NCBI GenBank assembly: GCA_003661385.1
Contig: QMWA01000124.1
Span: forward strand, 1-5,392
Length of the DNA stretch: 5,392 bases
Source: Thermoproteota archaeon
Lineage (GTDB): Archaea > Korarchaeota > Korarchaeia > B14-G2
Reading direction: 5' to 3'
Made by a program: the position numbers and the translations under genes. Below are positions 1 through 5,392 of this stretch, one piece after another. Position 1 is the stretch's first letter; each line of letters opens with the position of its first letter. The notes under the pieces are model-generated. The model did no database searches and was not told the origin of the DNA. It saw only the letters and a list, made by a program, of their open reading frames with translations.

Positions 1-1029
1 CCTGAAGCTGAAGTCAGCATAGAGGAGGTGCTGGTTCACGCCCTAGCATGCAGCAGAGACCCAAGAGACAAGATGCTCTGCGCCATCTTCTACCTGAAGA
101 ACAAGAGCAGGATAGACGACAGGAGAGCCCTTCTAAATGCTGCCAGAATGGGGCTGACTAGAGAGTGGATTTCACTCAAAAGCTATGTTGAGGGAAGCGA
201 GGTCGAAGGCTACCCGAGCCTCAGCGAGCTAGCTGAGGCAGCTAGCCTATACGGTGTACGAGTAGCCCTCCCTACATCACCTGAAGCAGCCCTAGAGCTC
301 CTAGAGCAGCTGGCCTCTAAGCTGGATGGCGAAGCCACCTGCTACCTCATAGGAGGGCTAAACCTCATGCTAAGAGGCCTAAAGAAGAGCACAAGGGACA
401 TAGATATCATGGTGGAGAGCAGAGTTGAGCTGGAGCTCCTCAAGAAGGCCCTAGCTAAGCTAGGCTACCAGGTAGCCTACAGCAACAGCAGCACCCTATG
501 CGTCAAGCATGGCATGCCGAGATTCGACATCTACCTGAAGATGGTGGATCACAGCTATAAGCTAACGAGGAGAGCAGCTGAGGAAAGTGAGCTCAAGCAG
601 ATTGGGAAGCTCAAGCTTAAGCTTCTCCCACTGGAGGACATAGCGCTTCAGAAGGCTGTAGCGGGGAGAGAGCGCGACATAGCAGACCTAGCGTCGATAG
701 CACCGCTAATAGACCAGGAGAAGCTCCTAAGAGCTCTAGAGGAGCAGGAGCAAGCCCTTGGGAAGCCCATCTGCAAGAGCCTCCTCAAAGCCCTCCAGAC
801 ACTACAGGAGGAGTATGGCATCAAGCTCAGAGTGCTGAGGAAGCTGACAGCACACACTATAGAGCACGTGATCTCAGCTATGAGAGAGCCCTTCACACCA
901 GCTCAGCTAGCAAGGGAGCTCGGCATACCAAGCTACAAAGTAAGGTATAGGGCGGAGAAGCTCCTGAAGCAGGGCAAGCTCACCAAGGTAGAAGGCAGGT
1001 ACATGAAGCTTGAGAATTTAAATCCCTGA
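1..1029 (+). CDS. AbiEii/DUF6036-like nucleotidyltransferase with C-terminal winged helix (5' end outside window)
   Basis: Probable polymerase-beta-fold nucleotidyltransferase of the minimal/AbiEii-like group, which transfers nucleotides to RNA or protein targets; the substrate here is unknown. The frame is open to the left edge. Counting from a GTG at base 28, residues 107-128 carry the signature loop (IGG, then TRDIDIMV) with metal-binding Asp124 and Asp126; the third acidic residue is probably Asp167 in RFDIYL. Residues 198-221 contain the family's conserved helix (LEDIALQKA, GRERDIADL). Residues about 287-328 form a winged-helix-like domain (FTPAQLARELGIPS). A helical stretch of unknown role fills residues 1-80. 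GTG28 is a weak start: the nine codons before it are open, read like protein, and the GAGGAG directly abuts it, so the true start is probably upstream. The glycosylase gene follows after 14 bases. AbiEii proteins are toxins in type IV toxin-antitoxin pairs; no antitoxin gene is visible, though the winged helix could serve that role in cis (inference). The fold is fairly sure, the role is not. Confidence 0.85.
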   Translation, partial: PEAEVSIEEVLVHALACSRDPRDKMLCAIFYLKNKSRIDDRRALLNAARMGLTREWISLKSYVEGSEVEGYPSLSELAEAASLYGVRVALPTSPEAALELLEQLASKLDGEATCYLIGGLNLMLRGLKKSTRDIDIMVESRVELELLKKALAKLGYQVAYSNSSTLCVKHGMPRFDIYLKMVDHSYKLTRRAAEESELKQIGKLKLKLLPLEDIALQKAVAGRERDIADLASIAPLIDQEKLLRALEEQEQALGKPICKSLLKALQTLQEEYGIKLRVLRKLTAHTIEHVISAMREPFTPAQLARELGIPSYKVRYRAEKLLKQGKLTKVEGRYMKLENLNP

Positions 1030-3272: not shown

Positions 3273-3278
3273 TTATAA
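3273..3278 (+). promoter_or_regulatory. TATA box for the PcRGLX/YetA-like gene
   Basis: TTATAA in the context CCGTTATAAGC. The centre lies about 26 bases before the GTG start at 3302, exactly the archaeal TATA-to-start-site distance, so transcription probably begins at or next to the first base of the start codon. No Shine-Dalgarno motif precedes the GTG at a useful distance, which agrees with a leaderless transcript. Confidence 0.65.
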
Positions 3279-3301
3279 GCTCAAGGATCCATGGCTAGCA
3301 T

Positions 3302-5392
3302 GTGAGGCTAGCTCCCCTAGCTGCGTCCCTGGTGCTCCTAGCCTTTCTCACGCTGCCATTAGCTAGTCAGCTGCAGCCCCTCATCCCGATTACAGTCAGA
3401 AATGAGCTTCCATACGATAGGGTTAGTGAGCCTGTGTCAGCTGGCATACCACTGCCACCTGGAGCCTTAGAGAGTGCTAGTGAAGCTAGGCTGCTAGACT
3501 CCTGCATGAGGGAGGTTCCAGCTCAGTTCAAGGCTCTCGCAACATGGAGTGATGGAAGCGTAAGGTGGCTTCTAGTGTGCTTCCAGTGCAGTGTCGAAGC
3601 CTACAGCGAGTCCACCTACCTCCTCCAGCTTGGAGCGCCTCCCTCACGCCAGCCCTCACCTCTGAGGGTAGAGGACTATGGCAGCTTCATCAAGGTGTCG
3701 ACAGGCGCTCTAGAGCTTGAAATAGGCCAGTCTCCGCTCATCAGGCAGGTCAAGCTGGACTTGAATGGCGACTTGGAGCCTGAGAAGCTGGTCTGCAGCT
3801 CAGGGGAGGTCGTAGCCACAGACACAGCTGGAGGAGAGCACCTAGCTGGCCTTGGTGTGAGGTCCATTGAGGTTGAGGAGGCTGGGCCTCTGAGAGCTGT
3901 AGTCAAGGTAGCTGGGACACACTTGAGCTCCAGTGGAGGGCAGCTGCTGAACTACACCATGAGGATAGTCGCATACGCCTGGAAAAGCTACATAAGAGTA
4001 TACTACACAGAGGAGAACGGCCTCCCAGTCTTGAACGATGGGAGTGGCCAGCCAAACTGCCTCAGGCTTGGGTCACCAAACAGCGTTTACTTCGAGGACA
4101 TATCCCTCAAGCTCAAGCTTGAGCCAGGAAGCTTCACGTACACCTTCCCAGCAGGCCAGCAGCAGGTATCAGGAAGGCTGGAGGGCTCCGCGTACATCTA
4201 CCAGGACTCAAGTGGAGGCGAAGACTGGGATAGGTGGCCTGGGACATCCTTCAGAGGCTACGTGATCTACGCGAACAGCGAGCTCCTGTACACTGGGCTG
4301 AGAGCCAGGGGGTGGGGAGACATCTCATCACAGAGCTTCGGCCTAACGCTATGCAAGAGGTTCTTCTGGGAAAGCTACCCCAGCGCCATAGAGTTCACAG
4401 AAGACGGGCTAGCATACCTGAGAGTGATGCCAAAGTACTTCTCACAGCCATATGAGCACAGAGCTGGAGAGCACAAGACCCACGAGCTCATCCTGTACTT
4501 CCACCCTGGAGAGTTCACAGCAGAGCACGCTGCCACAGCTGAAGCCCTAATGCACCCCCTGCAGGCCAGAGCCCCAGCACACCTCTACCTGGAGTATGGG
4601 CTCTACGAGAGGTGGCCACCATACTCGCCTGACCTCTTCCCAAGCTATGAGGCAAACAACCTCGCAGCTGTAAATGGAAGCGGAGGCGTCTACGGCGACA
4701 ACCTCTTCACCATAAGGGAGACAGTAGACTTCTATGGGTGGATGCACTTCGGTGATGTCCGTGTAGTAGACGAGGATGGTGGCACAGGGCAAATGAACCT
4801 ACAGTACGACTTCGAGTACGGCATGATAGTCCAGAGCCTAAGGCTGCTTGAAGCAGACCCAGAGAACTCCATGAGGTGGTGGAAGCTAGCTGAGCAAGCC
4901 TGCAGGCACACAGCTGACATAGACATTCTCCACGTGCACTGGGCAGACCCCAATCAGCCCTCATCACAGTGGATAAAGTGGTGCTGGGGAGGAATGTTCT
5001 GGCACACGCCACATGAGCAATCTGGCCTAGAGAACCCCCATAGAGGCTCGTCCCCAAGCCTGGAGTTCCAGTTCTGCAGAGGCCTCCTAACCTACTACTA
5101 CATGACAGGCTATGCTAAGGCATGGGAGGCAGCAATGGAGGTAGCAGAGAACACCTACTGGAGAGTAATGAACGGAAACGGGAACCCAGGGTACAGTATG
5201 ACAGCAAGCGACGAAGCCAGAGCCCCAGCGAACGCCCTACAAATACTCCTAGCAGCATACCAGGCCACGTGGAGCCAGAAGTACATGGAGGCAGCCAGAA
5301 GAGTCATAGAAGAGTCCCACTTCCAGACGAAGTGGTACAAGGACGGCCCAAACCCAGAGTATGCCAGCAGGTCAGTTGCACCATGGCAGCAA
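3302..5392 (+). CDS. Exported PcRGLX/YetA-like (exo-rhamnogalacturonan lyase-like) protein, 3' end outside window
   Basis: A continuous frame of 697 codons runs from GTG 3302 to the last base of the window. The family is named for the Penicillium exo-rhamnogalacturonan lyase PcRGLX and Bacillus YetA; characterised relatives remove units from rhamnogalacturonan by beta-elimination. Residues 1-22 look like a signal peptide (MRLAPLAASL, cleavage near Ala21-Ser22). Residues about 28-111 match the N-terminal RIFT-barrel domain (EPVSAGIPLPPGAL; WSDGSVRWLL). Residues about 115-400 fit the central beta-sandwich (KRFFWESYPSAIEF at 352-365; GEHKTHELILYFHPG at 389-403). Residues from about 425 on fit the C-terminal alpha/alpha toroid (GWMHFGD 479-485; YDFEYG 502-507; RHTADIDILHVHW 535-547; WHTPHEQSG 567-575; GLLTYYYMTGY 594-604). 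The in-frame stop TAG at 3296-3298 and the TATA box at 3273 fix the GTG start. Nine cysteines (68, 93, 96, 165, 253, 351, 534, 561, 592) may include disulfides. Family membership is well supported; the substrate in this organism is inferred. YetA is about 860 residues, so roughly 150-200 are probably missing. Confidence 0.88.
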   Translation, partial: MRLAPLAASLVLLAFLTLPLASQLQPLIPITVRNELPYDRVSEPVSAGIPLPPGALESASEARLLDSCMREVPAQFKALATWSDGSVRWLLVCFQCSVEAYSESTYLLQLGAPPSRQPSPLRVEDYGSFIKVSTGALELEIGQSPLIRQVKLDLNGDLEPEKLVCSSGEVVATDTAGGEHLAGLGVRSIEVEEAGPLRAVVKVAGTHLSSSGGQLLNYTMRIVAYAWKSYIRVYYTEENGLPVLNDGSGQPNCLRLGSPNSVYFEDISLKLKLEPGSFTYTFPAGQQQVSGRLEGSAYIYQDSSGGEDWDRWPGTSFRGYVIYANSELLYTGLRARGWGDISSQSFGLTLCKRFFWESYPSAIEFTEDGLAYLRVMPKYFSQPYEHRAGEHKTHELILYFHPGEFTAEHAATAEALMHPLQARAPAHLYLEYGLYERWPPYSPDLFPSYEANNLAAVNGSGGVYGDNLFTIRETVDFYGWMHFGDVRVVDEDGGTGQMNLQYDFEYGMIVQSLRLLEADPENSMRWWKLAEQACRHTADIDILHVHWADPNQPSSQWIKWCWGGMFWHTPHEQSGLENPHRGSSPSLEFQFCRGLLTYYYMTGYAKAWEAAMEVAENTYWRVMNGNGNPGYSMTASDEARAPANALQILLAAYQATWSQKYMEAARRVIEESHFQTKWYKDGPNPEYASRSVAPWQQ

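Follow-up and report, generated by a model that had tools for sequence, protein, structure and literature searches.

Among named systems, the best structural match to the protein described here is PcRGLX from Penicillium chrysogenum, an exo-rhamnogalacturonan lyase (CAZy PL26, EC 4.2.2.24; PDB 5XQ3, 5XQG, 5XQJ and 5XQO). At the time of PMC10461819, CAZy PL26 held 1,657 sequences, with one characterised enzyme and no accepted subfamilies. The CAZymes of natronoarchaea already include PL26 (PMC10963439), and the haloarchaeon Halomontanus rarus carries a more canonical copy, so archaeal PL26-like genes as such are not new. The protein reported here is read, at a probability of roughly 0.62, as a secreted carbohydrate-active protein on a deep archaeal branch of the PL26 superfamily, with a rebuilt active site and an extracellular glycan, probably not rhamnogalacturonan, as its target.

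The window, which is the entire contig QMWA01000124.1 (5392 bases), belongs to a host assembly of 1.74 Mb in 206 contigs that is 91% complete. Its longest open reading frame is the PcRGLX-like gene at 3302–5392 (+ strand, 697 codons), which, as a preliminary description of this DNA had stated, shows no stop up to base 5392; it is cut by the contig end. Because the homologues are 881–942 aa long, the window protein lacks about 180–200 C-terminal residues. An in-frame TAG at 3296–3298 makes GTG 3302 the first possible start, with none upstream. A search of the window for four TATA-like hexamers returned two matches in total, one of which is TTATAA at 3273–3278 (+), −29 to −24 relative to this GTG; its placement supports, and does not prove, a leaderless transcript. 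The first 22 residues (VRLAPLAASLVLLAFLTLPLAS; 3302–3367, +), as read from the sequence, probably form a signal peptide and direct export, and leaders resembling them occur in four homologues (L003, L005, L006 and L008), in line with the intact signal peptide proposed earlier. The host encodes a full-length reverse gyrase (1305 bits), which points to a thermophilic archaeon; of the hyperthermophilic archaeal host named before, the archaeal nature and the thermophily are thereby upheld.

The window encodes other proteins as well. At 1–1029 (+), cut by the contig start, lies a nucleotidyltransferase-like gene whose product matches DUF2204/DUF6036 over the cut-off and has a C-terminal winged-helix-like region. 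The product of the gene at 1602–2831 (−) is related to the Hvo_1808 family surface protein, with a match (E 1.6e-39) that falls short of the equivalog cut-off; the 3′ end of this gene overlaps that of a DNA-3-methyladenine glycosylase gene (1044–1643, +). In the Hvo_1808-like gene, ATG 2813 opens a signal-peptide-like stretch and suits a TATA-like site at 2843–2848 better than does ATG 2831.

Profile comparisons and structure modelling indicate that the window protein is homologous to PcRGLX along its whole length, with the same three-domain fold. With the Pfam models of the superfamily (PF19501, PF21345 and PF21346) and their gathering scores as cut-offs, PcRGLX_1st (the RIFT barrel) was matched by residues 42–97 (3425–3592, +) at 31.9 bits (cut-off 22.1), and PcRGLX_2nd (the central beta sandwich) by residues 122–236 (3665–4009, +) at 55.2 bits (cut-off 23.5). 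The latter match spans model positions 2–121 of 360, and the remaining sandwich is recognised by structure. PcRGLX_3rd (PF21346) found no match in the window protein, in five orthologues or fusions with a full toroid, or in a search of 101 relatives. The C-terminal alpha/alpha toroid, incomplete here (residues 416–697; 4547–5392, +), is recognised by Foldseek and by hhalign, in which a profile–profile comparison restricted to the toroids gives a collinear alignment of 332 columns (E 1.2e-5, probability 81%). The earlier statement that N-terminal, central and C-terminal blocks all match the PcRGLX/YetA architecture therefore stands as to homology, with the third block under the Pfam threshold.

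The relationship is a distant one, at 17–19% identity to PcRGLX, with 17% for the window protein. The single window protein gave no phmmer match in the PDB, and PcRGLX was reached by profile only. When six archaeal homologues were built into a profile, it picked out PcRGLX in the PDB at 7.7e-9, in short collinear stretches that extend into the toroid; a profile that combined archaeal and bacterial sequences aligned with PcRGLX over its full length, at a significance driven by the bacterial rows. AlphaFold on the single sequence was of no use (pLDDT 35.6). With five sequences, on the complete orthologue L005 (896 aa), it gave a model (mean pLDDT 58.8) with two usable domains and a poor toroid, often below pLDDT 50. 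In Foldseek searches with this model, the top matches were all PcRGLX (best 2.1e-18, whole chain covered), and VIA-align of the first two domains against PcRGLX gave Z 28.9 and an rmsd of 2.7 over 351 residues, the next family standing at Z 21. The structure model, of a kind the preliminary description had called for, thus ranks PcRGLX first, with low model confidence in the toroid. Two other assignments were set aside: DUF3473 and C5-epim_C, whose Pfam matches are weak and below cut-off, and kinship with GH38 or galactose mutarotases, where the VIA-align structural matches reflect the common beta-sandwich fold.

The active site is where the archaeal proteins depart from the canonical set. Tyr-to-Phe mutants are usually made for trapping substrate, and the printed alignments of 5XQO, the PcRGLX substrate complex, with the wild-type chain show such an exchange in ITYEDWEPG, at position 437 of the deposited chain. 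On the basis of this deposited complex, Tyr437 of PcRGLX is probably catalytic. By sequence alignment, as distinct from pocket superposition, this position is Tyr in 10 of 10 canonical PL26 proteins, a gap in all six archaeal clade members and in a more distant archaeal relative (G159), and Met in H. rarus. The nearest archaeal aromatic residue, Y384 of the window protein, is Phe in the other five clade members and is therefore no replacement. The absence of PcRGLX catalytic residues, which the preliminary description had named as evidence against its assignment, is accordingly seen in part, for Tyr437 and at the level of sequence, not of an active-site superposition.

Further, of 109 canonical invariant positions, the six archaeal proteins all retain 37 and all lack 56. 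In PcRGLX numbering, the losses include Y437, E438, the R550-H551-W553-Y555-D556 loop, R613, H614, W619 and R627; the H-x-W-x-Y-D loop and the RHGVQHW motif are missing from the whole clade. Y534-G535, G540-D541, D547, N564, E590, R594-H595, D600 and H603 are kept. The clade has invariant blocks of its own, including HRxGExKTHE, DEDxGxGQxNLQYDF, RH[TS]ADxDxLH, WxWGGMFWHxxH and PHRG. In the window protein, GEHKTHE (residues 389–395; 4466–4486, +) aligns with the canonical G-x-x-R-T-x-E/D, YGWMHFGDV (residues 478–486; 4733–4759, +) keeps the YG and GD of PcRGLX, and RHTADIDILHV (residues 535–545; 4904–4936, +) aligns with PcRGLX RHTGEVDVYHI. Specific to the archaeal clade are W-I-x-W-x-W-G-G-M-F-W-H-x-x-H (residues 557–571; 4970–5014, +), near the canonical RHGVQHW, and PHRGSSP (residues 579–585; 5036–5056, +). 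Near the Trp-rich insertion the sequences align with less certainty, and residue-level claims there are tentative.

Orthologues with 62–65% identity were found in 3 of 28 other genomes of the host phylum, all of the same class as the host. They are stand-alone exported proteins (L003, L005 and L006); their GC is 64–71% versus 56% here, and their gene neighbourhoods differ. The protein is under strong constraint, with 64% amino-acid identity versus 70% difference at fourfold sites, and so matters to its host. Among 394 sampled archaeal genomes, seven had any match, and one of these (G202) was then set aside as mannosidase-like, its weak profile match falling on an ORF (L015) that resembles a GH38 alpha-mannosidase. 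In Thermoplasmatota, 2 of 389 sampled genomes match (L007 and L008), at 51–52% identity over the PcRGLX-like module, which is fused into proteins 2626 and at least 2262 residues long that also carry beta-helix, PKD, laminin-G or cadherin domains. G159 is 25% identical, and viral contigs gave no match.

A tree with bacterial, fungal and archaeal homologues had been proposed as a check, and in IQ-TREE the archaeal clade does hold together (support 100/100) on a long stem, apart from the canonical set; G159 and then H. rarus branch between it and the canonical bacterial and fungal proteins. The window protein is best read as a member of an archaeal branch lying deep within the PL26/PcRGLX superfamily. 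Being unrooted and including few bacteria, the tree does not give the direction of transfer. Occurrence is patchy and identity between two phyla is 51–52%, which suggests that archaea have exchanged the gene.

Several related loci deserve mention in their own right. The 2626-aa Thermoplasmatota surface protein (L007:3804-11684) contains NosD/beta-helix, laminin-G, PKD and PcRGLX-like modules and a second beta-helix-like (DUF1565) stretch, and its N-terminus reads from sequence as a papain-type peptidase, with no Pfam match listed. The other fusion (L008:7971-14756, at least 2262 aa) has an N-terminal PcRGLX-like module followed by beta-helices; a stretch with DGIHLDIE, with no Pfam match, resembles a GH18-type barrel. 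Divergent to the L003 orthologue and beside it lies a gene (L024:11709-13010, +) for an exported, TIM-barrel-glycosidase-like protein with no Pfam family matched. A PcRGLX-like protein of more than 1060 aa (L025:6750-9937), from a genome of about 0.6 Mb, has a toroid with a near-cut-off match to a GH127 catalytic domain. In addition, genes for DUF1961 proteins lie close to PL26-like ones in Pseudoalteromonas and Halomontanus (L021:5083-8523 and L017:1-249), and DUF6250 adjoins such genes in Sphingomonas (L020) and Hymenobacter (L022).

Under the favoured reading, the protein would be exported and act outside the cell. The cleft that separates sandwich from toroid may hold the end of an extracellular glycan, acidic or rich in deoxysugars, and its cleavage may rely on residues in the motifs particular to the clade (HRxGExKTHE, DEDxGxGQxNLQYDF, RH[TS]ADxDxLH, WGGMFWHxxH and PHRG). 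The likeliest substrates would be microbial exopolysaccharide or surface glycans, over plant rhamnogalacturonan; the occurrence of the Thermoplasmatota module among beta-helix, PKD, laminin-G or cadherin domains fits a surface-glycan role. As to chemistry, we lean slightly towards beta-elimination over hydrolysis because the sole characterised relative is a lyase. It is conceivable, as a tentative extension that we hold with less than even confidence, that the clade forms a new family, made up of exported archaeal enzymes that cleave glycans, with a PL26 scaffold and an active site rebuilt around KTHE, RHTAD and WGGMFWH; these would act on the exopolysaccharide of archaea or of vent communities and would have passed between archaeal phyla.

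Three other explanations were weighed against the favoured reading. The short contig of 5392 bases and the division of the MAG into 206 contigs would allow an assembly or binning artefact, in which a contaminant contig had brought in a bacterial gene. We reject this as extremely improbable: the codon usage of the gene agrees with that of the host reverse gyrase gene (r = 0.92), as does its GC with that of the host, two of the three orthologues in same-class genomes lie on contigs of 687 kb and 128 kb, and the nearest canonical bacterial relatives found are just 18–22% identical. The same codon usage bears out the earlier view that the gene, said there to match its neighbours in this respect, was not recently transferred. 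A true exo-rhamnogalacturonan lyase, that is, canonical PL26 function in a hyperthermophilic archaeon, would accord with the three-domain homology and the 37 retained invariant positions; however, none of the six clade members has Tyr437, Glu438, the H-x-W-x-Y-D loop or RHGVQHW, and an archaeon with reverse gyrase and relatives among vent MAGs would hardly be expected to feed on plant pectin. Partner enzymes of rhamnogalacturonan catabolism speak in the same direction. GH88/105 was found in none of four carrier genomes and GH78 and GH28 in none of six, in searches that covered these three families and were positive in control genomes; the carriers are incomplete MAGs (completeness 91–96% where stated). 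The missing partners appear to argue against a rhamnogalacturonan pathway, and we regard canonical function as quite improbable. The pectin-type lyase of the preliminary description is not supported by these results, and its alternative suggestion of a different substrate becomes the likelier one.

The main rival is a non-catalytic glycan-binding or structural surface protein on a PL26 scaffold, for catalysis could have been lost in the clade, with binding retained. The adhesin-like domain fusions in Thermoplasmatota would suit such a role, as would the loss of the very tyrosine mutated in the PcRGLX substrate complex. The His, Asp, Glu, Lys, Arg and Trp of the motifs, however, are densely invariant across phyla, a pattern that seems more active-site-like, and we consider a purely binding or structural protein unlikely, if less so than a canonical lyase.

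A hyperthermophile clade with the PL26 scaffold and without the substrate-complex tyrosine offers a direct test of which residues set the substrate and the chemistry, and a starting point for finding thermostable enzymes that act on the glycans of hydrothermal communities. Naming such proteins rhamnogalacturonan lyases from their N-terminal Pfam domains would mislead.

Compared with PcRGLX, the archaeal protein has the RIFT barrel, beta sandwich and alpha/alpha toroid in the same order and fold, and the YG, GD, GxxxTxE and RHTxxxD motifs are common to both. Tyr437/Glu438, the H551-W553-Y555-D556 loop and R613-H614 of PcRGLX are lacking in the archaeal clade, whose sequences carry an insertion rich in Trp. 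The PL26-like protein of H. rarus (WP_276255890.1) is 24% identical over 91% of the query, and 25% in a second comparison. Similar to the archaeal clade, it has a KTH[ED] variant and no Tyr at position 437, whereas it differs in matching all three PcRGLX Pfam models and in keeping RHGVQHW, and its gene clusters with GH78, GH2, GH43 and sulfatase genes. Since much of the canonical loop is kept, the H. rarus protein is intermediate between the canonical PL26 enzymes and the archaeal clade.
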